Of a stretch of DNA of 64,000 bases, positions 7,184 to 61,229 are shown in pieces. The DNA is taken from the IMG/VR virus record IMGVR_UViG_3300045256_000294, positions 1 to 64,000 of that record; one strand, written 5' to 3'. Origin of the DNA: a virus. Below the pieces are notes generated by a model. That model saw only the letters and a program-made list of their open reading frames with translations. It ran no database searches and had not been told where the DNA came from. Each line of letters starts with the position of its first letter. Positions within the stretch are counted from its first letter, which is position 1. The position numbers and the translations under genes are program-made.

Positions 7184-7710
7184 TAGCCGACCCCACCGGG
7201 GAAATCACCGCCTTGCCAGCTAGGAAGCGGAGGCAACACACCACCCGCTGCAGGGAATGACCCTTCGGGCTTATAGGGGTCTTGTTCTGGTGGCTCTGCT
7301 AGCTGGAAGTCTGGGTGAGGACAGTAGCCCATCCCGTTGCTGTCGCAGATGTCGAACTTCTCCTCAACAGGAAGATCGTCACTCGCTAGGCTCTTCAGGA
7401 TCTTATAGTAGTCCTCATAGCTCTGACAGGGGCAGTCCGGCTTTAGCGGTGGCAGGACGAACCACTTCTGGCGGAAACCACCGCGATTGAAGTTGGCCCC
7501 AAGCTTCACGAACGAGCCTGGAATCGCAGCAAGAGCAACTTGCAGATCGACCAACGGATTACCGATACCGTGCTTGGCAAGGTACGCACCCAGAGTACGC
7601 GAGGACAGAGCACTGGTCGGCTCATAACCAGGGACCAGAATCTTGTTGCCGGGCATGACTTCCAATTGCCAGGCGATCGTGTGCGTCCAAGTTGACGGAC
7701 TAGCGATCAT
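7183..7710 (-). CDS. Hypothetical virion-region protein
   Basis: A 175-residue protein. I choose ATG 7710, preceded by GGTGGACC, rather than the longer frame because upstream sequence belongs to an HTH remnant. The protein has mixed hydrophobic and charged segments, a cysteine-containing middle (PDCPCQSYEDYY), and a glycine- and proline-rich tail (about residues 150-175) that looks flexible. No enzyme or membrane motif is visible. It sits between the split neck gene and the zinc-ribbon gene in the structural run, so a neck or head-tail role is possible but unproven. Confidence 0.55.
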   Translation of the reverse strand: MIASPSTWTHTIAWQLEVMPGNKILVPGYEPTSALSSRTLGAYLAKHGIGNPLVDLQVALAAIPGSFVKLGANFNRGGFRQKWFVLPPLKPDCPCQSYEDYYKILKSLASDDLPVEEKFDICDSNGMGYCPHPDFQLAEPPEQDPYKPEGSFPAAGGVLPPLPSWQGGDFPGGVG

Positions 7711-7991
7711 GGTCCACCTGAATACTGATAATATAACTTCACCACAACCACCGTACATCCAGTCATGCGAATCCGACTTCTAGCCGACTCGGGCGTTCGG
7801 TTTGGTCGTGGATTAATAACAATTCCATATCGACGCAAGGCCGACGTAACGGCTTTCTTTCCGCAACCTATCAATTTCGCAATTTGGCGAGTAGTCAGCC
7901 CCTCAACTTCATAATGATCTCGAAGCCAAGCTTCATTCATCAAAAAGTCAGCAGCCGGCCCAACTTGCTGTCGATAATTGGTTGTTAGCAT
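7707..7991 (-). pseudogene. Helix-turn-helix fragment of a homing endonuclease
   Basis: The ATG at 7991 overlaps the stop of the split-neck C-terminal gene. Residues about 18-58 read as a helix-turn-helix (EGLTTRQIAKLIGCGKKAVT) like those at the N-terminus of the PD-(D/E)XK endonuclease at 8764-9804. The rest of the frame (from about residue 60) is low-quality and runs to the start of the next gene. No nuclease domain follows. It is best read as the DNA-binding remnant of a second endonuclease inserted in the same region. Confidence 0.5.
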
Positions 7992-8767
7992 ACAACATCT
8001 TTAAATGAACCGATAAGCGTTCCCAATACCGGAAGCAGCCAATTCCACGTCCAGAAACCCATTGGTTCACCCAAGTTGATGGCCTGCTCTAAGATTTTCT
8101 CTTTGGCCGTCTCACCTTCCTGAACCAGATCCGAACCGTCGTAACTGATGCTACCACCGTCGGGGGTTGGCATACCGGAGATCTTACGGCGAGAGTTGCC
8201 GACCATGATCCGAGCTTCAGCTAGCATCAGATCATAGCACAATTGACGAGCCTGGGGGCTGCGAAAATGGGTCACGACCGGGATGTAGAGGACCGTAACC
8301 GGGAACGCACCCTTGGGAGTTGGATAGAGACGGATCTTTTGATCCTTGGCACTCAGAGAATCACCTTCAACGTCAGAATTGCCTTCGTTGATGACCTCCC
8401 AATGCCCCTCGGTGCCAAGGATCTTCTGGCTGAACTTGCGGTAGGCCGCGAGCAGGTGGTAGTCCAGCAGAATGTTCTGGATGCCGGAGATGTTCCCAAC
8501 GTTGCTGCCAATGGATTTTTTAATTCCAATTCTTTTCCGCACATCTTTGAAAATGTCGTTTGTCTGGTTATAACTATAACCAAAATCAGACAAGCGTTTA
8601 ATAAATTGCGGCCCGTGGTCGGCGTCCCCAGCTTCGATGTGGGCGATTTCGTGGGCGATGTCTTTGGCGGTAGCCGATTCAACAAATTTATTAGATATAA
8701 AAATTTCTGCGGTTTCAACATCGCAAAATGCCCGCACATGAGCAAATGGAAGCACTTTGATAATCAT
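7985..8767 (-). CDS. C-terminal half of split neck-like protein fused behind a SprT-like protease domain
   Basis: Residues about 12-75 look like a SprT/WSS1-type zinc metalloprotease: strand FCDVETAEIFIS, then the metal site AHEIAHIEAGDADHG (HExxH plus a later HG). From about residue 88 (VGNISGIQNILLDYHLLAAY onward, with KILGTEGHWEV and IRLYPTPKGAFPVTVLY) the protein continues a phage neck/virion protein whose first half is encoded at 9767-10477. The ATG overlaps the stop of the endonuclease gene (ATGA), so translation is coupled. No intein C-terminal motif (HN followed by C, S or T) is visible at the join. DNA for the SprT-like part is clearly more A/T-rich than the neck part, as expected of inserted DNA. 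The SprT call is by motif only. Confidence 0.6.
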   Translation of the reverse strand: MIIKVLPFAHVRAFCDVETAEIFISNKFVESATAKDIAHEIAHIEAGDADHGPQFIKRLSDFGYSYNQTNDIFKDVRKRIGIKKSIGSNVGNISGIQNILLDYHLLAAYRKFSQKILGTEGHWEVINEGNSDVEGDSLSAKDQKIRLYPTPKGAFPVTVLYIPVVTHFRSPQARQLCYDLMLAEARIMVGNSRRKISGMPTPDGGSISYDGSDLVQEGETAKEKILEQAINLGEPMGFWTWNWLLPVLGTLIGSFKDVVC

Positions 8768-9804
8768 CGCACATACCTCACCGAGTACAAATCACTCCCC
8801 AACTTCCGTGGCGGCGTGGCCCGCCACTTCCCAAGCGTAAAGCCAACAGCTTCATTTATAGTTTTGAAATAATAGGTAACTTGTGTGGCAGCGGCTTTGG
8901 GGGGCGGCCACCGAAATTCAACAGCCTCGGTACGCCAGCCGGTTTTAAGTAAATCCATCCCAGCGGATAGCTCATCAGAACTGGATTTACGAAAGATCAC
9001 CCCGGCCTCTTCAGCTCGCCGGCTGGCATAAATCCGTTTATCATCTGGCACAAGAACTCTATTAGGCTTAACCTCGATCCATTCTATCTTGTCCGGCCAA
9101 ACCACTGTAAAATCTATGATATAAAGGCGCTGTTTGCCGGTTAACATGTCAACATAAGGCACCCACATCTCCTCATAATACCACTCCAACCCAAGCTTAT
9201 CAAGCAACATCGCATAAGATAATTCATGCAGGGATCGAAATAAATATTTCGTACCGTTGACGGCTGTATACTCAGCTCTAATAGTCGATCGTCTCGTCTT
9301 CTCCAGTACGTCTGGCCGTTGGGCGGGTGCCAGCACTCCGTGCAAACGCAGATGGCGGGCCTGCATGGACTTTGATATCTGCTGTCTGGTTTTCTTCAGT
9401 CCCAACCGCTTGATGTGCTTCCGAATAACATTATAATGAACTGGTGGTTCTATAGTTTCAGCTATGGTCTTACTATCGAGATTCTGTTCAATAAAAAGTT
9501 TTTCTAGCTCGGCATCAGATAACACATATTTTCGATTGGGGTGTTTTGAACGAGCCAGCGGAGTATGATTATGGATGGAGGTGTCAACGCCGGCTATGCG
9601 TAGTCTTCTTTTGACAGTAGCCACTGAACAATTAAACTCGGCTGCACAGTCCGACAAAGTATGCGTTGCGAAGAACTGGATCAGTTTGGTGATATTTAAC
9701 TCTTTCTTATTAGCGATCACCCTGGGCGTGAATTTACCTGGATAGAAATCTGGTCGGTCCTTATGTTTAATGGATGAGGACCGGTTCCCCTTCCGTGCAG
9801 CCAT
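8764..9804 (-). CDS. PD-(D/E)XK-type homing endonuclease with two helix-turn-helix domains
   Basis: A 346-residue protein (start ATG 9804). Residues about 48-75 and 96-135 form two helix-turn-helix-like units (TLSDCAAEFNCSVATVKRRL; LDSKTIAETIEPPVHYNVIR). Residues about 180-270 look like a restriction-fold nuclease of the TnsA/T7 endonuclease I kind: an acidic helix (SLHELSYAMLLD), IIDFTVVW with the catalytic Asp, then WIEVKPNR with the E-x-K pair. Such proteins act as free-standing homing endonucleases. It lies between the two halves of a probable neck gene, overlapping both (38 bases with the first, ATGA with the second). The DNA is A/T-rich compared with its neighbours. Confidence 0.75.
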   Translation of the reverse strand: MAARKGNRSSSIKHKDRPDFYPGKFTPRVIANKKELNITKLIQFFATHTLSDCAAEFNCSVATVKRRLRIAGVDTSIHNHTPLARSKHPNRKYVLSDAELEKLFIEQNLDSKTIAETIEPPVHYNVIRKHIKRLGLKKTRQQISKSMQARHLRLHGVLAPAQRPDVLEKTRRSTIRAEYTAVNGTKYLFRSLHELSYAMLLDKLGLEWYYEEMWVPYVDMLTGKQRLYIIDFTVVWPDKIEWIEVKPNRVLVPDDKRIYASRRAEEAGVIFRKSSSDELSAGMDLLKTGWRTEAVEFRWPPPKAAATQVTYYFKTINEAVGFTLGKWRATPPRKLGSDLYSVRYVR

Positions 9805-10477
9805 AATAACACCCGGCGTTAAGAGCTCTGACTGAGATCGCGTCACGTGCCGCGTAGGTTTCGACGTTATGTACTGTCGGCGCGTTGTTAATGCCCTGCA
9901 ACTGCTCACCGACAACAATTTCCCCAAATTCACGCCATTTAGCACCTGGCACGGCCAGTACATGGTTGGTGGTTCCATCAACCACACCGTTGTCATAATA
10001 GATTCTAACTTTAGGTAGATCGCGGTCCACAACACGATTAACTATTTTTAATTTGCGATTACCATAGGGCGTTTTAGCTTTCCATTCAGCTTTCCACTCA
10101 CCAAGCGGTTGCAACTTACCATCTTTATCCAAGATATGAAAATTAGGGGCTAAGCAGAAGAGGAATGACTCGGCACCGAACACGTCGTCAATGCGGGTGG
10201 TCACCGGGTCCCAATTAACCTGCTGGACCCAATAAGCATCCTTGGGCAGCGGATAAGTAGACTTGAGGGGCTGAGTCCAGAACACCCCCAGCTTCTGCTC
10301 CCGCGGGAAATATTGTGCGATGAAGTCGCCGGCTACTCGCCACACAGTCTCCCACTGGTCCTCCTTGAGTTCTACGTCCACGGTCGGGTAGCCGAGTTTG
10401 GACAGGACATACTTCTTCATGGGCTCGGAACGAACCTTCATGATGCTCGGCAAGTCAGCCGGACCCATGATCGCCAT
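9767..10477 (-). CDS. N-terminal half of split neck-like virion protein, ending in an intein (Hint) domain
   Basis: Residues 1-107 are the start of a phage neck/structural protein (KKYVLSKLGYPTVDVELKED; then WDPVTTRIDDVFGAESFLF). At Cys108 the sequence switches to an intein splicing domain: block A is CLAPNFHILDKDGKLQPLGE, and block B is VDGTTNHVLAVPGAKWREFG followed by EIVVGEQL. The frame ends with VHNVET and, 26 residues later, VLIH, then TAA where an intein would place its final Asn. The rest of the neck protein is encoded at 7985-8767. It is unclear whether splicing still occurs or the element is broken. A good start is ATG 10477. Confidence 0.7.
   Translation of the reverse strand: MAIMGPADLPSIMKVRSEPMKKYVLSKLGYPTVDVELKEDQWETVWRVAGDFIAQYFPREQKLGVFWTQPLKSTYPLPKDAYWVQQVNWDPVTTRIDDVFGAESFLFCLAPNFHILDKDGKLQPLGEWKAEWKAKTPYGNRKLKIVNRVVDRDLPKVRIYYDNGVVDGTTNHVLAVPGAKWREFGEIVVGEQLQGINNAPTVHNVETYAARDAISVRALNAGCYYGCTEGEPVLIH
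9770..10156 (-). mobile_element. Intein N-terminal (Hint) segment in the neck gene
   Basis: Covers Cys108 to the end of the frame (129 codons). Block A and block B are clear, including the TxxH motif (TTNH) needed for the first splicing step. A convincing C-terminal block with HN plus C/S/T is not found in this frame, in the endonuclease frame, or at the head of the 7985-8767 gene. Confidence 0.65.
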
Positions 10478-10501
10478 GTGCCGTTCCTCCCTACACCCGC
10501 A

Positions 10502-11041
10502 TTACGATTGCGGGAAATGGTAACCCTTGTCGCCGTAAATAACGCCAGCGTAGTCGAGCCGGAACACCTCGTAGACGGCACCATCCGGTAACCCAGAAGC
10601 CAGGGCTGCCTCGATCGCCGTCTTCAGAGCCCGAACTTCAGTATTGATCGTCGAGGTCGGACCAGCGGTGTTGGAGTGAGCCACCGACCCCTCATAGATC
10701 TCACCGCCAGAAAAACGCTTGATCTCAGCATGGGTCGGTGTGTTGTTGCCGGACACTTCATAAAAGCCGGTCAGCATCAGTTGGGCCGGAGCGGCACCGA
10801 TCTGAGGCTTGCAAGCGGCGGCGTTGGCGAAACCGCCTAACCCGCCCCTCCGGTTGTAGTCGCCCATGCTTTGAGTAACACTGCCGCCCGGAGTAGCCGC
10901 CTGAACGCCAGAGATGTTGGTGATGACCTCATAAGCCAGTACCGCCAGCTTCTGGAGGTCACGGATGTACTCGAACCGCTTTCCGTTCGCCCGGTCGGGG
11001 ACGACACGAATGTGGACGGTGAATGGAACTTGCTTCGACAT
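10502..11041 (-). CDS. Hypothetical virion protein
   Basis: A 179-residue protein starting at ATG 11041, with GGGAGG six bases upstream; the longer frame is not supported. It has an alternating strand pattern and a glycine-rich region (about residues 70-85: GDYNRRGGLGGFANAAACK), then TGFYEVSGNN and a C-terminal AVYEVFRLDYAGVIYG segment. No catalytic motif or transmembrane segment is visible. It follows a head-completion or tail gene order, so a tail or neck role is likely, but I do not recognise the family. Confidence 0.6.
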   Translation of the reverse strand: MSKQVPFTVHIRVVPDRANGKRFEYIRDLQKLAVLAYEVITNISGVQAATPGGSVTQSMGDYNRRGGLGGFANAAACKPQIGAAPAQLMLTGFYEVSGNNTPTHAEIKRFSGGEIYEGSVAHSNTAGPTSTINTEVRALKTAIEAALASGLPDGAVYEVFRLDYAGVIYGDKGYHFPQS

Positions 11042-28327: not shown

Positions 28328-28544
28328 AGAGACTATCCCTATTTAAGTTGTGTGGGACAGAAGACCCATCAAGGTTTATGTACCGACGCAAAATCATATA
28401 CCCAAGACCGGCATCGACTAAGATCGCGTTGGAGTGGATGCTCTTGACGCGGGCGGCGATGCCCCGCTCGTGGCAGAAGTGGCCGACGGCGTAGGTGGCG
28501 GGCTCAGTGAAAAGGATCACATCACCTATCGCCAGACAGTTCAT
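28170..28544 (-). CDS. Small hypothetical protein
   Basis: The first about 70 residues (MNCLAIGDVILFTEPATYAV; then AILVDAGLGYMILRRYINLD) read as a small strand-rich domain. The rest, which overlaps the glycosyltransferase start by 158 bases, looks like out-of-frame sequence, so the real protein may once have ended near 28330. The ATG overlaps the stop of the intein-bearing glycosyltransferase (ATGA). Function unknown. Confidence 0.45.
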   Translation of the reverse strand: MNCLAIGDVILFTEPATYAVGHFCHERGIAARVKSIHSNAILVDAGLGYMILRRYINLDGSSVPHNLNRDSLYENYVWPTPRRCFRVHHRRDDQRPAGQGTCGNSLGRPRAFVAWFCSRSILRS

Positions 28545-31500
28545 TTCAGAGCCTCAGCCAGTTCTTGGGAATATCCGATCCGTCGTAGTTGTTCACGCTG
28601 GCGGTCCACCCGATCAGCTATCTGCAGCCGTTTGAGTGATGCTTCCAGAGCCTTGTTCGCATCGTGATGGTCATGCCAACCACTCACCCGCGAGTGCCAC
28701 AAGTGAAGGAAGTCAAACATGCGGTCCTCCTTCCACTTAGTAGTTCCACTCAAGCGGGCGTAGAAGTCACAATCCTCGCAATTATGCACAAATAGACCGT
28801 TCACCACATAAGAATGGTCGTCGGCCACTTCGAAATTGTACACAGGCCCCGAGTATGATCGACTCTTAATGTCGTATACCGTCCCGAACTTGGACCGGCC
28901 CATCGAACTAGACCCAATCAGCGACGGCTTAGTGTAGACCGTGCTGATAAGATGCTCGAATTCGCGGTTCACGCACAGATCGAAGGTCCAGTCAGAACTA
29001 CCAGGGAACGACCCACCGGATCGCTTACCAAAGGAATGAGCGATCCCCAATCGCCGCATGATTCCGGAATAGGCCATCGCCAGATTAATACTAGAACTGT
29101 GGTAAACATGACGGCGTTCTGACCCGTTGCCGTGGTCGGCGTCCCCGTCACATCCGCCGCCGAGCAGGAGCGATAGTTGTCGATCGGTGAGCCCGTTAAT
29201 GAACGACTGTGACACTACCTTACTGGTAGCCTGGTGACGGCCCGCCACCGCTTTAATAGTCTTCGCCAGCAGCGAATTAAATACCCTGACTTCGCGGCAG
29301 CCATTCTTAACATAGTGGTACGCTACATTAATGTCTGGGTGCAATTCTTGCACCAGCCTCTCGACATGCTTCGCCAGGAACTCCTCACTCTGGCTAAGAT
29401 AGTAGCATACGGTCCGCAACTTGTCCGGCGTCTGCAACACCCCATCGGCAAGATACAACCCTAGCAAGTAACAAAATTGATCCATTTTGGCATAGACGTC
29501 GAACGAATTCTTGCTCAAATCAAGATTTGCTAAATCGCTCAAATCGTAGCTCGGAACCAACTCCGGCAGGAAATCGGTCGAAGCGATCACATCACCATTA
29601 TTAAGGGTATCGGCTCGTCGCCACATAAACTCATCAGGCCCGGTCTGCACCAGGAACGGGTGATTTGGGGTGACTCCCTTGATTGGCAGACGACCAGGAA
29701 CATAGACATCCAGAACGGTCCCATCATAGTGGCGACTACGCAACTCGATCGGTTGGAACTCGCACTCGTGGGTATAGAGGCGGTCAGAGGCCGTTACCGT
29801 CTCAATAGGCTTGTACCCCGCCTGAGTTAGAACGTAGTTGCCGGGGAGAAAACACCCATAACCCCAATAGTCCTCATTGAAGCCGCCGCACTTCCAGAAG
29901 CCCTTCTTGGTCACAGCCAAACTACCACCCTCGTAGTAGCCCACCACCCGTTCGCACTTGACCTCGGCGTCGATGATCCCAGAAGCGTTGATCTGCTTCA
30001 TCGACTCCTGAGTGGTGTACAGCACGGTACTACCGATATGACACGACTCATAATCACGAAGGATATCGGCGACGGCCTGGGTGTAGTGACCCTGGGCCAG
30101 CATGTCGGCATCATGGAGAATCACCATATCGCAAGGAGCCTTAGCCACACCGACATTGAACGCCCGGCTCTTGTTGAATAGCGGGCTCTCAGGGGCCGTA
30201 ACCAAATAGTGGTTGACCGGGGCATACTGGCTTATGTCGATTTGGGACTGCGAATCCTGCTCGACCATAATAAGATGGATCACCGGGAACCGCTGTGCCC
30301 GAAGGTTATTCATCACCGTGGCAATCGAGGCGGTCCGCTCGAAATCGCGGAACGGCACCACGTAGGCGATTTCCGGCACCCGGCTCTTCTCACTCGGACC
30401 GACATATACCGGCCGACGATGGGCGAACTTGGTGCGAGCCTCCTGGAGCAGACGGGAGCGTTCTTGCACCGCGGACGGCTCGGCGTACAGCTTGAAATAG
30501 TTGTCCGAGCCAGACACGTCGAAAAAGCCGGCGTCCTGCAGACCAAGCTCCCACACCCGCTGTGACCAATCCACGTGTTCCATGCCGTACAGACCATACG
30601 ACTCGTCAAAATAACCGCATGTCTTGAGGAACTGGTTGTCGAAGGCCAGGATTGCCCCATGGGGCTTGTCTTCAACCCGCAGCAAGGACACACCATTCTT
30701 CTGAACCACGGTGCCAAGGTCGGCACCGTATACCCCATACTGGCGGTACATGAAGTGGTGCATCCCGGTCTTGACCATCACGTCCGGGTAGAAGTATTCC
30801 CAGCCGTGATTCAAGATCTCCACATCGTCATTGAGCAGCAGCCCATACTGGAACCGCGACAAGCATCTCAGCAGACGGTTACTGTTGCAGGCAATGCCGC
30901 TGCGTTCCTGGTTCCTGAGGATGACGAAGTTTGGGTTGTTCGACAGTTCATTCAGGTAGGTGACGGTGGCCGGGTCGGTGCTGCCATCATCGGAAATGAA
31001 GACGGTTGTCCGCCGTAGGTCGGTATTCCGGATGATCGAGTCCACCAACCGGCGAAGGCTACCAGCCCGATTGAACGACATGATGCCTACGGCGATGCCG
31101 TTACTGACCGGGTAGTTGTTCCGATCCAAGTTGTAGCGTAGGAGTTCGTTGGGATCGCGACTGAGCGATTTGCCGACGATCTGCTTTTGTGGTCGCATAT
31201 GAGTAGACGGCACCGGCTTGCGATTGCCAATCTTGGCGGCCATCGCAATTTTGCGGGCACGTGCCACATCTGCCCTTTTGGGCTTGACTTGAGCGGGGGC
31301 AGCAGCTTGGATCTGTGACTGGGGGGTCTGGCGGCGAGCGGTTTCTGTGACCTTGACCTTGGCCTGCACTTTGATAGGAGCAGCGGCCTGGGCCTGCTGG
31401 GATTGGGCGAGACGCAAGAATCCGCGAGCACGGTACTTGTCGAAGAATTCCGACAGAATGACCCGTTGGTGTGGTTTCACCTTGAGTGATTTACCATCTG

Positions 31501-31549
31501 GCCCCAGCAGGTGTACGGCGTAGCTGTGGGGGTTGACGTATTCTGGCAA
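28541..31549 (-). CDS. Two-domain family 2 glycosyltransferase carrying an intein
   Basis: A 1002-residue precursor. Residues 1-45 are a small module also seen in two short putative virion proteins (VKPHQRVILSEFFDKYRARG). Residues about 60-135 are Ala/Lys/Gln-rich linker. GT domain 1 begins at GIAVGIMSFNRAGSLRRLVD, with FISDDGSTDP and LLLNDDVEIL. GT domain 2 begins at IAYVVPFRDFERTASIATVM, with VILHDADMLAQG. An intein fills residues 566-923, and the last 79 residues (CEDCDFYARL onward) complete domain 2. The mature protein would be 644 residues. The intein sits in the acceptor-site loop 'GYG/CEDCDF', one of the most conserved parts of the enzyme, so activity depends on splicing. Confidence 0.85.
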   Translation of the reverse strand: MPEYVNPHSYAVHLLGPDGKSLKVKPHQRVILSEFFDKYRARGFLRLAQSQQAQAAAPIKVQAKVKVTETARRQTPQSQIQAAAPAQVKPKRADVARARKIAMAAKIGNRKPVPSTHMRPQKQIVGKSLSRDPNELLRYNLDRNNYPVSNGIAVGIMSFNRAGSLRRLVDSIIRNTDLRRTTVFISDDGSTDPATVTYLNELSNNPNFVILRNQERSGIACNSNRLLRCLSRFQYGLLLNDDVEILNHGWEYFYPDVMVKTGMHHFMYRQYGVYGADLGTVVQKNGVSLLRVEDKPHGAILAFDNQFLKTCGYFDESYGLYGMEHVDWSQRVWELGLQDAGFFDVSGSDNYFKLYAEPSAVQERSRLLQEARTKFAHRRPVYVGPSEKSRVPEIAYVVPFRDFERTASIATVMNNLRAQRFPVIHLIMVEQDSQSQIDISQYAPVNHYLVTAPESPLFNKSRAFNVGVAKAPCDMVILHDADMLAQGHYTQAVADILRDYESCHIGSTVLYTTQESMKQINASGIIDAEVKCERVVGYYEGGSLAVTKKGFWKCGGFNEDYWGYGCFLPGNYVLTQAGYKPIETVTASDRLYTHECEFQPIELRSRHYDGTVLDVYVPGRLPIKGVTPNHPFLVQTGPDEFMWRRADTLNNGDVIASTDFLPELVPSYDLSDLANLDLSKNSFDVYAKMDQFCYLLGLYLADGVLQTPDKLRTVCYYLSQSEEFLAKHVERLVQELHPDINVAYHYVKNGCREVRVFNSLLAKTIKAVAGRHQATSKVVSQSFINGLTDRQLSLLLGGGCDGDADHGNGSERRHVYHSSSINLAMAYSGIMRRLGIAHSFGKRSGGSFPGSSDWTFDLCVNREFEHLISTVYTKPSLIGSSSMGRSKFGTVYDIKSRSYSGPVYNFEVADDHSYVVNGLFVHNCEDCDFYARLSGTTKWKEDRMFDFLHLWHSRVSGWHDHHDANKALEASLKRLQIADRVDRQREQLRRIGYSQELAEALK
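28781..29854 (-). mobile_element. LAGLIDADG-containing intein in the glycosyltransferase
   Basis: A 358-residue intein. Block A is CFLPGNYVLTQAGYKPIETV, block B is GVTPNHPFLVQTG, two LAGLIDADG-like helices lie at CYLLGLYLADGVL and SLLLGGGCDGDA, block F is PVYNFEVADDHSYVVNG, and it ends FVHN followed by extein Cys. All splicing residues (Cys1, TxxH-type His, penultimate His, terminal Asn, +1 Cys) are present. The second endonuclease helix is less regular, but acidic residues remain in both. Confidence 0.9.
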
Positions 31550-46407: not shown

Positions 46408-46734
46408 TTAACCTTCTGTCGGATCATCCGGGCAGAATTTCTGCCGCTGTGCCTTGGCCCTCTCGTAGGACGCCTTGGCGTTCGCTTCCACCAACACGAG
46501 AGCGTCACACAGCAGCAGGAATTCATCCTCAGTGTAGTACAACGTCTGGGTGCTGATCTGGGATCGCCTCTCCATAGCCCCGCCCATCGACGGCGGTCCC
46601 AGCGAATAGTCAATGGAGTACATCCAGCCGTTCTGACCGAGATGTACACCACTGATTTTCACAGCCTCAAGGGTGCCGATCGCCGCCGACTCCCTGAGGT
46701 AGACAACATCACCAGGGTTGTACTTGTTACTCAT
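46408..46734 (-). CDS. Small hypothetical protein between recA and helicase genes
   Basis: A 108-residue protein with an SH3-like start (KYNPGDVVYLRESAAIGTLE; then GQNGWMYSIDYSLG) and a helical C-terminus (EFLLLCDALVLVEANAKAS). Overlaps the recA stop by 8 bases. Similar small barrels occur in several short genes of this phage. Function unknown. Confidence 0.5.
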   Translation of the reverse strand: MSNKYNPGDVVYLRESAAIGTLEAVKISGVHLGQNGWMYSIDYSLGPPSMGGAMERRSQISTQTLYYTEDEFLLLCDALVLVEANAKASYERAKAQRQKFCPDDPTEG

Positions 46735-48937
46735 CGGAGTCCTTCATGGCGTCGAGGATGTCGTCGTCGAGAGGGTCGCCCTCGTCATCCCCGCTGACCG
46801 TGGTCACCAGATGCTTCGTCCGGTCACGCAGGTTATCGTAGATTTTCCCCATCAGAGCATCCCGGATCGCGTCGTTCTTCCGCAGGAACTCCGCCGCCGC
46901 ATCATAGCCATTGACCTTCTGCCCCTCGAAGATGAAGTAGCTGGACGACTTCTCGATCAGCTTCATGTCCCCGGCCACCTTGAGCAACGACTCGACCGAA
47001 TCGACGCCGAAGCAGGGGTAACCGAACCGAATACCATACTCCGCGGTCGTGAACGGCGGGGCACACTTGTTCTTCTTGACCGAGAGGTTCGTCGAGAAGC
47101 CGATCGTCTCTTTCCCATCCTTCACCGCCGAGCCCTTGTTGATCTGGACACGGAGGCTGGCGTTGAACTTGAGGGCCAGACCGCCGGGGGTGGTGTCGGG
47201 AGAATTGTGGACGATGATGCCATTGGTGGAGCCCCCAGCGGAGTAACACTTTGTGTCACGCACGCTGATATCATACTTCCCCCTGTCCCTCATCTGCCGA
47301 CCACTGGCGCGGCGAATGCTGATGACCGTCGCCACCGCATTGCGCCACGCGGCGTCGCGTTCCAACGAGAATTCGACATAATCGCGGGAACCGAACGGTA
47401 GCTTACGTCGCATGCACGGCGGCACGAATTCAGCTATGTTCTCAGCGATGCGGGTGGATACATCTTTATCGAAAATAATTGAACCGCCCTCACTGACATA
47501 GTGATACAGACCAAGATCATCGAGAGCGCGACTAATCTCTTCGAGTTTATCAAAATTGCCGGCGAACCGCCTGACTGAAAGATGGTAACGACCACACTCG
47601 TAAACGGCGTCGTCCATAACCCACACGGCGAATCCTAACCACGAAAAATGGTTAAGCAGAAGCATCGGGTCCCGATGCGGATATTCGCCCTTCATCTGGA
47701 GTAGCTCAGGGTAACAGTCAGACTCGTACCGTTCTCCGGACGGACATGGACGTTTGGAGAATTCCATATAACTCTGCAGCTTGCCTACTTTCCATAGCGT
47801 ATAATCTGGATCAGTATTGCCTCTAAGTATCAGAGATGCCCCCAATCGCTTGGGGTTGTGAGATAGGTGAGAATCACCCGACAACACACCAGTGAGGAAC
47901 AGCCCTAGAGTACCATTCGGGCGATTACCATTCATGACGAATGCTGCTTGCCGGGTGACAACGACATCCCCGCCGGCCAACTCCTTGGCCTCACGCCACC
48001 CACTACTAGTCAGTATCTTGTGTTCCGGTGTTACCGTGACCTGCATGCGACCATTCTTGGTGTCAGGTCCCTTGACCTCAATCAACAGAAAATCGTCAGG
48101 GGTCTGCACATCACCATTGTAATGCCAGTCAGTGATCGGCCGGGCGACAAAAGTCTCCGCCTCTTCGTCGTAGCTCCAGACGTCCCCCCTGACTCTCTCC
48201 TGTACAACCTTGGCGATGGGTAGACTGCGGCCATCAACAAAGTTGATGAGAGTGTCGCCGTGCAGGCACCCAAACATGACACCGATCTTCTGCCTGATCT
48301 GGTTAATAAAGATCACGGTAGTCTTGGACTTCGAAGCCTTCCCGGCGATCATCCGCAAGCCCTTCGACATGAGCCGAGCCTGGGCACCGATCGCGTTGTC
48401 GCCGATTTCCCCTTCGAGTTCCTGCTTCGGGATAAGGTTGGCCACAGAGTCCACCACAACCAGATCGACCAGCCCCGACTCGCAAATCTTGTCCACGATA
48501 TCGAAGGCTTCCTCACCGGAGTTGGGCTGGCTGAACAGGAGGGCGTCCACATCCACGCCGCACTTTGCTGCCCATTCGGGGTCGAAGGCGTGCTCGGCGT
48601 CCACGAACGCACAGACCCCCTTGCGGTTCTTGTGCGGGAAGAAGTGCTTCTGGCAAGCGGCGATGAACTGGATGCAGGTGGTGGTCTTGCCTGAGGACTC
48701 CAATCCATATATCTCGACGATACGACCTTCTGGTAGTCCTCCCACCCCGAAGGCTACGTCGATGGTGGGTACTAGAGTGGGGATGGCGTAGGTCCTGACG
48801 ATGTTCTCGCGGCCCTGCATGATGGTGCCGTCACCGTGGGCCTTGTTGAGGGACTTAATCAAAGCCCCCAGGTCCTTTGGCTTCTCGGCTTTTTTCTTCT
48901 TGTCGTCCTTCTCGTCGCTTTCCTTGGCCTTGGCCAT
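46727..48937 (-). CDS. recA: RecA/UvsX recombinase precursor with intein
   Basis: DNA strand-exchange protein. ATG 48937 is used because GGGGAG lies 8 bases upstream; total 736 residues. N-extein (1-223) contains Walker A EIYGLESSGKTTTCIQ, Walker B LVDLVVVDSVANLIPK, and VIFINQIRQKIGVMFG. The intein covers residues 224-578. The C-extein (579-736) begins SPDTTPGGLALKFNASLRVQ, the RecA DNA-binding and C-terminal region, and ends acidic (EGDPLDDDILDAMKDSDE). The mature RecA would be 381 residues. The insertion lies in loop L2 right after the conserved F-I-N-Q segment, a known intein site class in RecA proteins. Confidence 0.95.
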   Translation of the reverse strand: MAKAKESDEKDDKKKKAEKPKDLGALIKSLNKAHGDGTIMQGRENIVRTYAIPTLVPTIDVAFGVGGLPEGRIVEIYGLESSGKTTTCIQFIAACQKHFFPHKNRKGVCAFVDAEHAFDPEWAAKCGVDVDALLFSQPNSGEEAFDIVDKICESGLVDLVVVDSVANLIPKQELEGEIGDNAIGAQARLMSKGLRMIAGKASKSKTTVIFINQIRQKIGVMFGCLHGDTLINFVDGRSLPIAKVVQERVRGDVWSYDEEAETFVARPITDWHYNGDVQTPDDFLLIEVKGPDTKNGRMQVTVTPEHKILTSSGWREAKELAGGDVVVTRQAAFVMNGNRPNGTLGLFLTGVLSGDSHLSHNPKRLGASLILRGNTDPDYTLWKVGKLQSYMEFSKRPCPSGERYESDCYPELLQMKGEYPHRDPMLLLNHFSWLGFAVWVMDDAVYECGRYHLSVRRFAGNFDKLEEISRALDDLGLYHYVSEGGSIIFDKDVSTRIAENIAEFVPPCMRRKLPFGSRDYVEFSLERDAAWRNAVATVISIRRASGRQMRDRGKYDISVRDTKCYSAGGSTNGIIVHNSPDTTPGGLALKFNASLRVQINKGSAVKDGKETIGFSTNLSVKKNKCAPPFTTAEYGIRFGYPCFGVDSVESLLKVAGDMKLIEKSSSYFIFEGQKVNGYDAAAEFLRKNDAIRDALMGKIYDNLRDRTKHLVTTVSGDDEGDPLDDDILDAMKDSDE
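47204..48268 (-). mobile_element. RecA intein
   Basis: A 355-residue intein: block A CLHGDTLINFVDGRSLPIAK, block B VTVTPEHKILTSSGW, endonuclease-like helices GLFLTGVLSGDSHLSHN and LGFAVWVMDDAVYECG, and end DTKCYSAGGSTNGIIVHN before extein Ser. All splicing residues are present. Confidence 0.93.
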
Positions 48938-49208
48938 CGGTGAATCTCCCCAGAGGTGCGAGTATGGCGTCAATGTCGTATGCTGCCACTTTCAAAACAT
49001 CCATAGCAGGAATGCGGATAGTGGCACCATGCTTGACGACAAGCAGGTCGTGTCCATCTTCGACGGGAATGATCGACGCCACACTCCACACCCCCTTGGG
49101 AGATACCGATGCCTCAGGGGGTGCTGAGAGGTACTTGACATTTCGAGTGGTACGTAGTCGCACTTGGTCGAACTGACGAAACTCGATCGATTCCTGCTGT
49201 TCAAACAT
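48855..49208 (-). CDS. Hypothetical protein overlapping the recA start
   Basis: A 117-residue protein with strands in the first 80 residues (EFRQFDQVRLRTTRNVKYLS; HDLLVVKHGATIRIPAMDV) and a charged Arg/Glu/Gly-rich tail that overlaps the recA start by 83 bases, so the natural stop may be earlier. SH3-like appearance as in other short genes nearby. Not recognised. Confidence 0.5.
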   Translation of the reverse strand: MFEQQESIEFRQFDQVRLRTTRNVKYLSAPPEASVSPKGVWSVASIIPVEDGHDLLVVKHGATIRIPAMDVLKVAAYDIDAILAPLGRFTDGQGQGKRREGRQEEKSREAKGPGGFD

Positions 49209-56324: not shown

Positions 56325-57533
56325 TCACCGTTCCCTCAGAGCCATGATGATCTCGCCGCGAGCAAGGGCGAAAGTACCCCGTTTGTCGTCGTAGTCCACA
56401 AACATCTGAACCGCCTTCCCCCTGGAAATGATATTCAGATCTTGATTCTGTAGTTCGTTGAACCACACGAAAACCAGGGCCGTCTGGATACCGTCGGTAA
56501 TGAAGACCTTAAGGTACGGCTTGTTGGTCTTGGTCATGCCGTCAACGACGTCCTGAATGATCCCCTCAAGCTTGACCTCACCGCCCGTCTTGGCGTTCTC
56601 CTTCGCCTGGGCGATCGTGCAGCCCTCGCACTTATACACGTCCAGCGGCGAATCGATCCAGTAGCCCAGGAACTGCTTCTGGAACAATAGCCGATCTTCC
56701 ATGGTGAAGTCATCAGGGAAGAGGGCCATCACCTTATCGCGGGTATCCTTTGGCTTCGGCTGCCAATTCTTCAACTTGTCCGGGATCTTATTCCGCTTGG
56801 GGAACGTCCGTTTCCACTCCATGATCTGACGCTGGCGTTCCTCGTTGATAGTCTTGGGGTTCCAGCCCTCAAGTTCCAGGAGCTTAGCCCGCACCGCCCG
56901 GCGGAGTTCCGTCATGTTCTTACCGGACTTACAATATTTGTACTGGTAGTATTGCCATAGAGCCTGAGCGTTCTCGTGGCCCGGCAGGTGGCGGAAGGCC
57001 CCCAACTTGATGAACCGCTCCAACACCGTCTTCGACTGACGACCAGGGGCCGACTCCACGAACTCATCGATATCCCGATACTTGCCCTTCCCTTCGAAGG
57101 CGAGAGCCGCCTTCTTGCCCAATCCCTTGATACCGATGAGCCCCTGATTCACCGTGTCTCCAGTCACGGTGAAGTTGCTGGTCATATGCTCAATGTTCAC
57201 CACCGAGAAACGGACGTTGCGAGGCTTCTCCTTACCGCCTTTGTACTTCCCACAGTAAGTGATTTCAGTTGGGTTCCACTCTTCAGCACGAGCCACACTC
57301 ATGTACCGCACCAACTTGTCCGGGTGGCAGTCGGACATAACCGCCGCCCAGAACTCCGGTGCGAAGTGAGCCTTAAGCCACAGACATTTAAGGGCCACGA
57401 GGCAGTAGGAGACGGCGTGGGAATTACGATGTACTGCCGCAGAAGAATCAGTTATGTAATTGTGTTCCGAAGACGCCATTTCTGGCGAATACGTTTGCCG
57501 CATCCCTAAGGATCGATACGATACGATCTTCAT
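56325..57533 (-). CDS. dnaE: DnaE polymerase, C-terminal part, beginning with a split-intein C-half
   Basis: Third piece of the polymerase. ATG 57533 (GGAG 5 bases upstream) starts the intein C-half: MKIVSYRSLGMRQTYSPEMA then SSEHNYITDSSAAVHRN (37 residues). The extein follows as SHAVSYCLVALKCLWLKAHF, the segment that in normal DnaE comes directly after 'FNK'. Further on are a helix-hairpin-helix (GLIGIKGLGKKAALAFEGKG) and an OB-type fold (EVKLEGIIQDVVDGMTKTNK). The protein is 402 residues, 365 after splicing. It needs the half at 59106-61229 to work. The start codon overlaps the endonuclease stop (ATGA). Confidence 0.9.
   Translation of the reverse strand: MKIVSYRSLGMRQTYSPEMASSEHNYITDSSAAVHRNSHAVSYCLVALKCLWLKAHFAPEFWAAVMSDCHPDKLVRYMSVARAEEWNPTEITYCGKYKGGKEKPRNVRFSVVNIEHMTSNFTVTGDTVNQGLIGIKGLGKKAALAFEGKGKYRDIDEFVESAPGRQSKTVLERFIKLGAFRHLPGHENAQALWQYYQYKYCKSGKNMTELRRAVRAKLLELEGWNPKTINEERQRQIMEWKRTFPKRNKIPDKLKNWQPKPKDTRDKVMALFPDDFTMEDRLLFQKQFLGYWIDSPLDVYKCEGCTIAQAKENAKTGGEVKLEGIIQDVVDGMTKTNKPYLKVFITDGIQTALVFVWFNELQNQDLNIISRGKAVQMFVDYDDKRGTFALARGEIIMALRER
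57423..57533 (-). mobile_element. Split intein C-half (DnaE)
   Basis: Thirty-seven codons, block F (TYSPEMASSEHNYIT) and end AAVHRN followed by Ser+1. The residue before the final Asn is Arg rather than the usual His. Confidence 0.85.
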
Positions 57534-59188
57534 AACAACTCCAATTTGTAATGTCCAGCATCCCACAGCCGTCTATACCCATTGGCGAACATATTCTGGG
57601 CTTCGGTCAATTCGGCCTTAAAATCAGGCAAGAGACCAGGTAACTTATGCTTCTGAAACATCTGTCGCGGATACACTTTCTGGCCTTTACAATAACTATA
57701 CCCAGGAGGGGTCACACCACGCTTGACGAACCCAGCTGCAATATAAGCGGCAGCAGTTGGTGAATAACGGCGATCCACATACGTGAATACGCTGCCAAGG
57801 CCCGACCGTTTCATCAACCGGCTAAGGCCGCCCACAACCATTGTGTCCAATAAATTACAGAACCGCATTAACTCCCACCTCCCATGTAAATTGTTGAACG
57901 AAGCCGCAGCAACAATACAACCGCCTTTTTCCAGTGCCAAATAGCGACTAGATCGCCTATGCCCGTGTAAGTGATTGTGGTCAAAAAACATTTTCATCTC
58001 CGCTTCTGTGGGTTCGGTCACAACACAGTCCCTGGCGTAGACCCTCGATTTCACCAAACCGAGCTTGGAACGCAACATCGACTTTACGATTTGTGGCTTA
58101 TCACGCCATTCTGATTCATAAATCTGAATCAACGAAAAGCCTTTATCCAAAGCAGCATCCAACTTGTTATAGTGGCGGTATGACTCTTCCCTAGTTTCTG
58201 GCCTGTTATATGAGTGCCAATATAAACCATGGTACTCTATCCCAACGTTACCAGCAACAATATCAATCTCTTGGCCATCAAGGATATTGCGGTCATTACG
58301 AACACACTGCGTCAATGATCCAACAAATTCCGCTAACTCCATTTCGCCTTTAGAACTCGTTTTAGCCGAATCACAAAACCGGCACCCAGCCCCTTTGAGA
58401 TGATTCTGAGCTAGTTGTACAACATGTCCATGTATATCACACTTATAAACGATATGACTCAGCGATGACTCATACGTACTATCCGAATAATCGTATCTGC
58501 CACCATGGACAACTGCACAGCGCTCGAAGAATTCAGTCGCTGTTAATTTAGATCGCTCGGCCGCGCAGGTTGGACAGCCATGTCCTCGCACATGATTGGA
58601 CGGTAGCTGGACGAATGGGCCATGGTGCGGACACACGACCGTAAATGCCACATCGGTGCTTACGTAAACTGTTTTCGAATAATCATAAAAACCATCATGT
58701 ACTAATGAACAACGAGCTAAGAATTCAGCAGCATTATTCCGCCGCGCCGCATTAACTCTAGCTACATATTCTGGATCGGCGAATTTTTTCTTTATAGCCG
58801 CAGAAATCTTTTCAGCGAACTCCTTACTACTACTCAACCGCCGAGCACAGTCCCGCATTTTGGTGCGATAGGCATCATCCAGCCACAGCCGCTTTGACCT
58901 TTCAGACGACCCAGCCACAATCTTATCAATAGCAGATTTTGATGCCAACGAAGCAGCCGCGACGACTGACGGGAGGGCACGATAGCAACTTGGGCAATGG
59001 TAATCAACTACGTGTTTAGATTGATTGTTAACAGTCCGCACAAGTTCTGCAAATACAACAGTCCTCTGCAATTTACAATTAGCACAAATGGCCGTTACCC
59101 TTTCCTTACTTTTCGGACGAGTTGCCTTGGCCACCAGTCTGAGCCTGGGCGACATCCAATCCTTTGTCGATAATTTCTCTAACTTCAT
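57530..59188 (-). CDS. Vsr-like homing endonuclease with DUF723-type zinc repeats, between the two halves of a split intein
   Basis: A 552-residue protein (ATG 59188, GGGGAG upstream). Residues about 10-45 have a zinc pair (ERVTAICANCKLQRTVVFAE ... YHCPSCY). Residues about 160-290 hold two repeats like 'YDYSKTVYVSTDVAFTVVCP' and 'YDYSDSTYESSLSHIVYKCD', each followed by HGHV/HGPFVQL and a C-x-x-C. Residues about 295-420 are the Vsr-like nuclease core (CVRNDRNILDGQEIDIVAGN; VGIEYHGLYWHSYNRPETRE; GFSLIQIYESEWRDKPQIVK). The DNA is A/T-rich. This kind of gene is known between halves of split inteins (fractured genes). It overlaps both flanking genes. Confidence 0.85.
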   Translation of the reverse strand: MKLEKLSTKDWMSPRLRLVAKATRPKSKERVTAICANCKLQRTVVFAELVRTVNNQSKHVVDYHCPSCYRALPSVVAAASLASKSAIDKIVAGSSERSKRLWLDDAYRTKMRDCARRLSSSKEFAEKISAAIKKKFADPEYVARVNAARRNNAAEFLARCSLVHDGFYDYSKTVYVSTDVAFTVVCPHHGPFVQLPSNHVRGHGCPTCAAERSKLTATEFFERCAVVHGGRYDYSDSTYESSLSHIVYKCDIHGHVVQLAQNHLKGAGCRFCDSAKTSSKGEMELAEFVGSLTQCVRNDRNILDGQEIDIVAGNVGIEYHGLYWHSYNRPETREESYRHYNKLDAALDKGFSLIQIYESEWRDKPQIVKSMLRSKLGLVKSRVYARDCVVTEPTEAEMKMFFDHNHLHGHRRSSRYLALEKGGCIVAAASFNNLHGRWELMRFCNLLDTMVVGGLSRLMKRSGLGSVFTYVDRRYSPTAAAYIAAGFVKRGVTPPGYSYCKGQKVYPRQMFQKHKLPGLLPDFKAELTEAQNMFANGYRRLWDAGHYKLELL

Positions 59189-61229
59189 GATACTCCCCAT
59201 CAGTGCAAAGGAATTTGTGTTGCATTGTGACTCTCTCTGTCTGGCCATTATCGAAAACTATTTCAAACACCTCCTGCACACCAGTATCGTGAATAGCCAC
59301 GCACTTATCAGTAACAACTATGCCATTGCTGTACGCTTTAAGGGTCGGTAAATCAACTTCATTGGCCCACTCGCCAATAGTGGCCGACCGACCGGTGGTG
59401 GTGTCGGTTAGCACAGTATCTTTGTCAAGGCACTTATTGAAGGCGTATCTGCCGAACGTCTCCATCTTCGGCCACCACTCGTCAGCCTCGGCCTGACCGA
59501 GCATTTTGGCGGCACCGCGCAGCCACTTCTCCTTAATTGGCTTGAGCTTGTGGGTCAACTTCTTGGCAACGGCCTTTCGAGCCTCCTGAGCCTCAGGAGC
59601 AGTGAACCCGGCCACCCGCTGCCAGATGGCCTGCAATTGTTCCTGGTAAACGATCACACCATAGGTGTCCTTGAGGACATCCAGGATGACCGGGTGGAGC
59701 CTTTTCTGCCAAGTCTTACGGCCGTCATCGCGGTTTCTCACCGCATCCGGGATCGAGGCCATCGGACCAGGGTGACCCATCGCGTTGAACAGCATCAAGT
59801 CTTCGAAGCAGTACGACTGGTTGGCCAAAATACTCTTAGCCAGATCGGTGTCGAACTGGAACACCCCGTCCGTCTTTTGCTCGTTGGCGAGCCTGAGGGC
59901 ATGGGGGTCGTCCATGTTGATGAAGTGCTTCTCTCCGTTGCCGTCATAGTAGAAACCAGCGTGCCGGAGCCGTGGGTTGTTGTACTCCATCCCCTCCATA
60001 TTCTTACCAAAGGAGATACCGCGGTTCTCCTCAATAAGCTGGCACGCCTTGAAAATGTACTCCAAAGTCTTTAGGCCAAGGAGGTCCCATTTAATGTAAC
60101 CGAACTTGGATAGCTGGGTGTTACGGCCCTCAGTCCACATGCTCGTCCAGAAGCCCTTGCTTCCGGTCTTGGCCATGGGAACGTTGCCGTACAGCGGCCG
60201 GTTCGTGATGATGATGGCCCCGGCGTGCATCCCCATGTTGCGGATGCGGCCGATCAGGTTGAGAGCTACGTCGAAGATAGGTGGGTACACCCGCTCTTCG
60301 AGTTCCGGATTCTCCAACCGCTGCTTGTCCCATTCAGCCTGCAGTTCGACCCGCCGCTTCTCGCAGCTATCGTAGAAACGACGAAGAGGCTCGTGTTCCT
60401 CGAACAACTTGGCGAATGTCGGCCCATCGGTGTCGGTGGATTCTACGTTACGATCTGCCCAGCACTTCGGGCATTTGAGTTCACCCTTCTTGCTGCCGTA
60501 CAGATGGCCGCACTCCTTACCGGAAGGCAGAATCGCTTTGCATGGGGCCAGCCCGCCTTCCTTGAGATCGTCAACGTCGTCGGGCAGTAGCTTGGTGATC
60601 TGTTCAGCTTTCTCCAACTTGGCCTCTTCCATGTCCACGGTGACGCCAAGGTCATCCACGCTCTTGGTGCCCTTCCGCTTTACCCCAGCTTTGGTCTGCT
60701 GGGTGCCGCGGCCCATGTAGCCAAGGGCGACGGCTGAGTCGATTAAGGCACTCTTGAACTTATAGGTCTGCCACGTACCGACCGAACAGACTGAACCATA
60801 GCCATCATTATGGTTACTGCCGTAAGTCTTGATCGCGAATTCCTTAAGAGGGTCGCGAGCGGCCGGTAGGCAGTCAATGTCGATGTCAGGGCTGTCCGGG
60901 TCCTTGATGAGATCGTGTGGAATGAAGCCGTTAGCGTCCTTGAACTCCAAAACTTTCGCTGCCCGGACGGTGTTGAGCATCGGGGTCTTGCGAGCCACGA
61001 TGGGGTCATCATCCACCATCCCAAGAACCCACGGCAGGACTAGGTTATTGGGGTTAGACAGGAACTTCTTACCTTCAGAGTAACGGTTGACCCAGATTAA
61101 TTCAGCACCCTGCTTCTCGACCTCGGCGATCTCGAACTTGAGCCGTTCTTCGTACGGACCATCTAACCCTCGCTGGGCCAGGACAGCCAGAGCTTTAGAT
61201 ACGACTTGTTGCCAAGAAATATCAGTCAT
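59106..61229 (-). CDS. dnaE: DnaE polymerase, catalytic middle part, ending with a split-intein N-half
   Basis: Second piece of the DnaE-type replicative polymerase (707 residues). The catalytic acidic pair is in DSPDIDIDCLPAARDPLKEF, the third Asp in FGYIKWDLLGLKTLEYIFKA, and conserved polymerase segments include SVCSVGTWQTYKFKSALIDS. A zinc ribbon is inserted (APCKAILPSGKECGHLY ... ELKCPKCWADRN). The extein ends METFGRYAFNK, after which Cys600 starts the intein N-half. The first about 115 residues before the PDIDID motif are unlike normal DnaE order. Start ATG 61229. Its partner halves are at 56325 and 63246. Confidence 0.92.
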   Translation of the reverse strand: MTDISWQQVVSKALAVLAQRGLDGPYEERLKFEIAEVEKQGAELIWVNRYSEGKKFLSNPNNLVLPWVLGMVDDDPIVARKTPMLNTVRAAKVLEFKDANGFIPHDLIKDPDSPDIDIDCLPAARDPLKEFAIKTYGSNHNDGYGSVCSVGTWQTYKFKSALIDSAVALGYMGRGTQQTKAGVKRKGTKSVDDLGVTVDMEEAKLEKAEQITKLLPDDVDDLKEGGLAPCKAILPSGKECGHLYGSKKGELKCPKCWADRNVESTDTDGPTFAKLFEEHEPLRRFYDSCEKRRVELQAEWDKQRLENPELEERVYPPIFDVALNLIGRIRNMGMHAGAIIITNRPLYGNVPMAKTGSKGFWTSMWTEGRNTQLSKFGYIKWDLLGLKTLEYIFKACQLIEENRGISFGKNMEGMEYNNPRLRHAGFYYDGNGEKHFINMDDPHALRLANEQKTDGVFQFDTDLAKSILANQSYCFEDLMLFNAMGHPGPMASIPDAVRNRDDGRKTWQKRLHPVILDVLKDTYGVIVYQEQLQAIWQRVAGFTAPEAQEARKAVAKKLTHKLKPIKEKWLRGAAKMLGQAEADEWWPKMETFGRYAFNKCLDKDTVLTDTTTGRSATIGEWANEVDLPTLKAYSNGIVVTDKCVAIHDTGVQEVFEIVFDNGQTERVTMQHKFLCTDGEYHEVREIIDKGLDVAQAQTGGQGNSSEK
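59109..59432 (-). mobile_element. Split intein N-half (DnaE)
   Basis: 108 codons: block A CLDKDTVLTDTTTGRSATIG, block B ERVTMQHKFLCTDGEYHEVR, ending in a Gln/Gly/Ser-rich stretch and a stop. TxxH is present as TMQH. Confidence 0.92.

Follow-up and report, generated by a model that had tools for sequence, protein, structure and literature searches.

Here we describe a viral neck gene that is broken in two, with two unrelated, putatively self-processing domains flanking the break. It lies in a 64,000-nt stretch (the window), which is part of a 136,952-base viral record, perhaps incomplete (IMG/VR IMGVR_UViG_3300045256_000294). The N-terminal half of the neck or head-tail adaptor protein (N-half) continues into what structure prediction identifies as a complete Hint domain, the C-terminal half (C-half) is preceded by a predicted minimal zinc metallopeptidase (zincin), and the gene of a homing-type endonuclease lies between them. 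With our confidence evenly poised, we propose that such an endonuclease gene split the neck gene, that each half bears a small auto-processing domain, and that Hint and zincin together serve a ligation pathway. The features, with the basis of each assignment, are as follows.

10157..10477, minus strand: neck / head-tail adaptor N-half, residues 1-107, ending ...DVFGAESFLF (similarity to uninterrupted homologues and the junction)
9770..10156, minus strand: predicted Hint domain, N-half residues 108-236 (AlphaFold2, Foldseek, profile search)
9767..9769, minus strand: stop codon right behind the penultimate Hint His (sequence)
8764..9804, minus strand: gene of a helix-turn-helix (HTH) plus PD-(D/E)XK (TnsA-like) homing-type endonuclease (Pfam, PHROGs, conserved residues)
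8764..8767, minus strand: ATGA overlap of the C-half start codon and the endonuclease stop (reading-frame coordinates)
8504..8767, minus strand: predicted zincin (minigluzincin/SprT/WLM-like), C-half residues 1-88 (AlphaFold2, Foldseek, Pfam, conservation)
7988..8503, minus strand: neck C-half from N89 (similarity to uninterrupted homologues)

The three genes touch each other on the minus strand at the positions given in an initial annotation made from the sequence of the window: N-half 10477-9767 (236 residues), endonuclease about 9804-8764 and C-half 8767-7985 (260 residues). The neck portion comprises residues 1-107 of the N-half and 89-260 of the C-half, and the insert portion residues 108-236 and 1-88, respectively. 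A protein search with the C-half returned 26 viral-contig loci, and every match began at residue 89. Upstream of the match, all 26 continue as one uninterrupted gene reading ...FGAESFLF/N[IV]G[NQ][IV]SG.QN..., for example ...DVFGAESFLF/NIGNISGIQN... (here and below a slash marks the bond in question). The similarity of the N-half to the intact neck protein stops at the same point, after FLF. Identity to the uninterrupted homologues is 84% over N-half residues 1-110 and 67-83% over C-half residues 89-241. Since these homologues read straight across FLF/N, the position of the break is fixed, and the alignments place it exactly between F107 of the N-half and N89 of the C-half; the earlier claim of a split neck gene thus stands.

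By sequence similarity the split gene product is a head-tail adaptor or neck protein. The PHROG family phrog_211 (head-tail adaptor Ad2) is matched with E 3.1e-6 in split members and 0.0017 in the intact L003, and tblastn with the neck protein finds annotated head adaptors of jumbo phages. Such a protein is expected to be essential for the phage. A second, intact neck gene, which the initial annotation had named as grounds for abandoning its reading, was not found in the 136,952-base record, which may be incomplete.

The initial annotation took the addition to the N-half for an intein N-domain only. AlphaFold2 and Foldseek point instead to a complete Hint domain in which just the terminal Asn is missing. 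The model, built from an alignment of 13 sequences, has a block-mean predicted local distance difference test score (pLDDT) of 81-94 over N-half residues 111-236, with the strands of an intein-type C-part located at residues 213-235. At E < 0.001 Foldseek matched 41 chains of the PDB, and the ones listed are Hint proteins aligned across the full domain, including the bacterial intein-like (BIL) domain BIL2 (6y75, E 3.7e-7), VidaL (6vgv), a BIL domain of C. thermocellum and hedgehog (1at0), and gp41-1 (6qaz) matches with a target-normalised TM score of 0.80. A profile of the 13 Hint sequences searched against PDB sequences likewise found BIL and intein entries (BIL 2lwy, E 6.5e-5) and aligned end to end with the Hint domain of 8w20, whose VLVH ending falls at the same place. 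In Pfam, other members matched Vint (4.6e-5, the best family), PT-HINT (8e-4) and Intein_splicing (0.022); no Hint-type family was matched in the window's own N-half protein.

The sequence of the insert shows the features of the Hint superfamily, namely its fold, Cys or Ser at position 1 and the block-B His. In the window, Cys1 is C108, block B is TTNH (residues 169-172) and the domain ends ...EPVLIH-stop. Across the 13 aligned members, position 1 is Cys in 11 and Ser in two, and the block-B Asn-His pair is invariant. The last residue is His in 11 of the 13, Ser or Lys in two and Asn in none. By analogy with other Hint domains, the domain would be expected to form an N-terminal (thio)ester, and an acyl shift and cleavage are predicted. 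The initial annotation had seen no intein C-half. This holds for the C-half protein, which carries the zincin instead; it fails for the N-half, where the C-part is present and ends ...VLIH-stop where inteins have VHN. The string AEIFISNKFV had also been considered as intein block F and was rejected, the true block F/G sitting in the N-half.

As a separate observation, one group of Hint domains has a conserved Trp (9/9) and a block-F Cys (8/9) at N-half residues 181 and 223 (window about 9935 and about 9809, minus strand), neither of which is conserved in the other group. The pair faintly recalls W and C in class 3 inteins, yet position 1 is still Cys.

Ahead of the C-half, residues 1-88 appear to form a minimal zinc metallopeptidase fold of about 85 residues, in agreement with the SprT-like domain proposed earlier, though its sub-family is not clear-cut. 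AlphaFold2 predicts three strands and a helix carrying HEIAH (residues 39-43). Block-mean pLDDT is 73-87 over residues 1-70 and about 60 on to residue 88; the whole C-half model is weak (predicted template modelling score, pTM, 0.39) because its neck part is poorly covered. The top 10 Foldseek matches in the PDB are all minigluzincin/selecase, followed by IrrE, with 4jiu at probability 1.00 and E 0.014. Pfam gave SprT-like (0.0013) and WLM (0.0037) in other members and M78 (0.025) in the window protein; for the window zincin no match exceeded the curated cut-off, and the SprT, WLM, M78 and minigluzincin scores were all weak. These methods are each weak, and the three agree with the invariant residues: E40, H43 and H51, the third His, are kept in 14/14 members, and position 39 is His in 9/14 and Asp in 5/14 (DExxH), both possible metal ligands. 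As in WLM and SprT, [DGNAS]xx[FW] comes after the third His, and some members are as short as about 65 residues. From sequence and model, zinc binding and proteolysis are predicted. A degenerate intein C-domain, which had been considered for residues 1-88, is ruled out by the zincin fold and the invariant ExxH...H, and the stretch is not neck sequence either, as uninterrupted relatives lack it.

The end of the zincin carries a further signature. In 13/14 members the last three residues before the neck sequence are [IVLF] at P3, [AGS] at P2 and [AGS] at P1, followed by an invariant Asn; in the window this boundary is I86-G87-S88/N89. It is the most conserved stretch near the end of the insert, and it was not inherited from the neck gene, because intact genes carry F-L-F there. 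We infer that [IVLF][AGS][AGS]/N looks like a cleavage site.

The gene between the halves was correctly recognised at the outset as a PD-(D/E)XK endonuclease. It matches Pfam Tn7_TnsA-like_N (E 3.8e-6) and phrog_218 (E 2.8e-11), and its acidic residues and ExK are invariant among 7 relatives. Its first ATG lies at about 9804, so that the start of the gene overlaps the 3' end of the N-half, and at its other end it is coupled to the C-half by ATGA (8767-8764), as had been pointed out for this locus and for the split DnaE gene. A homing-type role fits both fold and position, and cleavage of the uninterrupted allele is predicted.

Sequence searches with pieces of the window alone gave no matches in viral_contigs, phages or PDB. 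Further loci were found with the DNA pattern FGAESFLF-Cys, an endonuclease alignment and the pattern [AG][AG]/N[IV]GN. Both halves could be read in 13 distinct loci, the window and 12 others (L029, L030, L031, L034, L035, L036/L053, L037, L038, L055, L057, L058 and L059). In 13/13, a Hint domain follows FLF and a zincin precedes N at the same F/N bond, and neither is missing anywhere. Twelve more loci, all distinct, carry this composite at an identical codon boundary, which excludes chance. Each Hint-bearing record that we searched with Hint and zincin profiles has a single zincin, and this is fused to the neck C-half; in four intact-neck records the profiles matched no Hint and gave no zincin of significance, the one stray match having E 0.028. 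Looking for the same module in other host genes, we found only ordinary inteins among the related phage records examined.

Other split loci have related or fragmentary endonucleases between the halves, and two groups of Hint domains pair with two groups of related endonucleases. The endonuclease is inverted in L057, reduced to a 97-residue piece behind the Hint in L055, and accompanied in L036 by other intervening genes, including a glycosyltransferase and a 608-residue reading frame. In L029, L031, L034 and L058 the C-half reading frame and the 3' end of the endonuclease gene share about 75-112 bases; the zincin start there is putative, and the shared stretch may be dual-coding.

Several loci are incomplete. 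L067 shows an N-half only, and L060/L062 a C-half only, with neither endonuclease nor N-half on the 26.8-kb contig; in this genome the two neck halves may be unlinked. The L060 C-half (7273-6605, minus strand) lies downstream of a papain-like/NlpC-type gene. A junction scan of genome_contigs for the C-half added one more copy, L092, which lies at the end of a contig, and one match due to chance. A scan of viral_contigs for FGAESFLF followed by any T-initial codon yielded Cys and Ser Hint domains and chance or unrelated matches, with no simple stop; it covered this one spelling of the motif, and members with FSAESFLF and FSSESFLF fell outside it.

The inserts have diverged far more than the neck protein that they flank, with median identities of 26-28% for the inserts and 57-62% for the exteins, and the catalytic residues are kept despite this low identity. 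Closely related loci differ sharply in one domain. L035 and L059 share 76-80% of their neck residues and 77% of the zincin, yet their Hint domains are only 19% identical; between L038 and L057 the identities are 81% (C-half neck), 51% (zincin) and 26% (Hint). Hint and zincin distances showed no Mantel correlation. For the L035/L059 zincin, the one pair from which the ratio was taken (NG86 being saturated for most pairs), nonsynonymous and synonymous divergence were dN 0.13 and dS 0.60, indicative of purifying selection. Since Hint and endonuclease were exchanged while the zincin stayed, Hint and zincin probably act separately. That both domains are retained through such exchange speaks against decay as well as a co-evolved split enzyme, and in favour of two independent processing steps needed by the phage. 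The initial annotation had wondered whether the protease releases the second half or is a passenger. The latter is unlikely given the strict co-occurrence with retained active sites, and release by cleavage is the leading idea, which we infer, for the role of the zincin.

Building on the domain identities, the conserved active sites, the boundaries and the co-occurrence, we propose the following pathway, every catalytic step of which is putative. Cys1 or Ser1 of the Hint domain would attack the carbonyl of F107, leaving the neck N-half and the Hint linked by a (thio)ester. The zincin would cut at its own C-terminal boundary, [AG][AGS]/N, to give the C-half a free N-terminal Asn. On assembly of the neck halves, the alpha-amine of Asn89 would attack the (thio)ester and create a native F-N bond with no scar, both Hint and zincin being left behind. 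Hint domains with Cys1 or Ser1 form an N-terminal (thio)ester, and hedgehog uses that step alone (PMC7664689). For type A BIL domains, the ligation that has been proposed is an attack of the free amine of the C-fragment on the thioester after Asn cyclisation (PMC4031507); relative to them, a protease carried by the partner chain would here take the place of C-terminal cleavage by Asn cyclisation. We judge it probable that both domains are removed from the neck halves, and that they are removed and the halves also ligated falls a little short of an even chance. A new kind of protein trans-splicing, with a Hint (thio)ester on one half, a zinc protease on the other exposing the amine, and a scarless neck protein as the outcome, is a tentative proposal, somewhat less likely than not.

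Several points weigh against this pathway. Aminolysis of a thioester without Cys, Ser or Thr at +1 is usually inefficient (PMC4031507, PMC7664689). Asp replaces the first metal-ligand His in 5/14 zincins, which could weaken catalysis, and the zincin fold match is modest, its best E of 0.014 coming from a model of pTM 0.39. The exact junction could merely reflect one ancestral insertion, and the absence of split genes free of both domains rests on one spelling of the N-half motif.

The main rival is that the domains trim and do not ligate: Hint hydrolysis would free the N-half, the zincin would free the C-half, and the neck would enter the virion as a non-covalent pair. This accounts for nearly the same data. 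BIL domains that lack a +1 nucleophile mostly cleave, as do Hint domains such as hedgehog without a terminal Asn (PMC7664689, PMC4031507), the independent recombination of Hint and zincin means that no tight interface between them is required, and the C-half of L060/L062 stands on its 26.8-kb contig without an N-half. Were trimming all that is needed, however, simple genes ending FLF-stop and starting Met-NVGN should suffice, and the scan, with its one motif spelling, contained none. We consider this explanation rather unlikely.

It is improbable, in our estimate, that Hint and zincin are tolerated appendages which stay attached to the folded neck halves, their conservation stemming from another task, such as cutting another phage or host protein. 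The activity of both domains is predicted, the insert could occupy an exposed loop, and some zincins are DExxH. Yet in inserts of about 27% identity only the active-site residues are invariant, a small-residue motif sits directly at the boundary, and additions of 129 and 88 residues would burden a connector protein that forms a ring.

An ordinary fractured gene, in which the C-part of a split intein decayed or was replaced and a non-functional remnant is carried along by the endonuclease, would explain why the genes are arranged as in the split DnaE of the window, whose C-half starts with a normal intein C-part (IntC, ...AAVHRN/S), and PD-(D/E)XK endonucleases are known in split genes. It is nevertheless highly improbable: the Hint is complete within one chain, the layout is stable with active sites kept across 13 divergent loci, both domains persist where endonucleases were replaced, inverted (L057) or reduced (L055), and the neck protein is expected to be essential. 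Joining at the RNA level is hardly credible, for although endonuclease-bearing introns are common in phages, an Rfam search of 7700-10700, which would bear on a self-splicing intron with a reading frame, gave nothing at E up to 0.5, and the flanks of the insert, in frame with the two neck halves, encode conserved protein domains.

A second peculiarity concerns the 3' end of the neck gene. The last ~19 residues of the C-half form a hydrophobic C-terminal extension, NWLLPVLGTLIGSFKDVVC (window 7988-8044), without counterpart in intact relatives. The neck C-terminus of the split L035 is likewise extended (...SPIKDIVC); other relatives have no such tail. A 94-residue reading frame with an HTH (TTRQIAKLIGCGKKAV; window 7707-7991, minus strand) overlaps the NWLLPVLGTLIGSFKDVVC tail, and this HTH resembles that of a 624-residue gene directly after the neck C-half in L092. 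Because of this overlap and resemblance, the 3' end looks, from sequence comparison, like a second spot for endonuclease insertion, with a decayed copy in the window.

The phage is also unusually rich in intein-type elements. Its split DnaE gene (window 56325-61229, minus strand) carries a canonical split intein, with a 572-residue endonuclease gene between the parts and the same ATGA coupling. Judged by translation, RecA (VHN/S; 46727-48973, minus strand) and a glycosyltransferase-like protein (VHN/C; 28541-31549, minus strand) contain apparently intact inteins. In phage G002, a DnaB-like helicase gene (L087:2589-4611, plus strand) seems split around a conventional Hint, its second piece ending ...VLSHN/S.

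How does the split neck gene compare with known systems? Fractured genes, reportedly described by Dassa et al. in 2009 as a split intein with a free-standing endonuclease, share with it a phage gene in two pieces, an endonuclease gene between them and a Hint-fold element at the break. In those genes one intein is divided, its N-part attached to one half and its C-part to the other, whereas here a whole Hint is on the N-half and a zinc peptidase on the C-half. Of the features of a split intein, the endonuclease gene between the halves is present; a terminal Asn, Gln or Asp (0/13), a Cys, Ser or Thr at +1 and a complementary C-part are absent, the +1 residue being Asn in all aligned intact and split genes. 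Type A BIL domains are among the closest structural and profile matches (6y75, 2lwy) and share the proposed attack of an amine on a thioester (PMC4031507), but they end in His-Asn and cyclise that Asn within one chain, whereas the Hint described here has no Asn and its C-flank belongs to a different chain, where a protease precedes it.

Hedgehog (Hog) and Vint domains resemble the present one in being C-terminal Hint folds without a terminal Asn from which a (thio)ester is expected, and Vint is its best Pfam family (4.6e-5). Hedgehog hands its thioester to cholesterol, and we know of no partner chain with a protease for it. On the other half, minigluzincin/selecase, SprT, WLM and IrrE (M78) share the fold and the [H/D]ExxH helix; the present zincin differs from them in being fused to half of a virion protein, in having Asp for the first His in 5/14 members, and in measuring only about 65 residues in some.

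The arrangement is thus neither a split intein nor a type A BIL; its N-half domain belongs to the Hint superfamily by fold, and its C-half domain is a zincin by fold and motif. Since each known kind has defining features that it lacks, we regard it as a new kind whose parts are all known and whose mechanism is putative. The initial annotation had thought the combination undescribed, and our search of open-access papers turned up no pairing of Hint and metallopeptidase; we can add that the composite recurs in 12 other loci. In the intein-type systems known to us, a single Hint fold, present whole or as two complementary parts, carries out both cleavages. In the split neck gene, the break of a virion protein expected to be essential is flanked by two unrelated domains that would process themselves, one per chain, and both are retained where the intervening endonuclease has been exchanged or lost. 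Should they do no more than trim, a mobile element would be tolerated in a new way; should they ligate, this would be a new protein-splicing chemistry with no fixed +1 side chain and a possible tool for protein ligation. The arrangement also bears on how Hint domains come to lose or acquire splicing, and on the ways in which the splitting of a gene becomes permanent.

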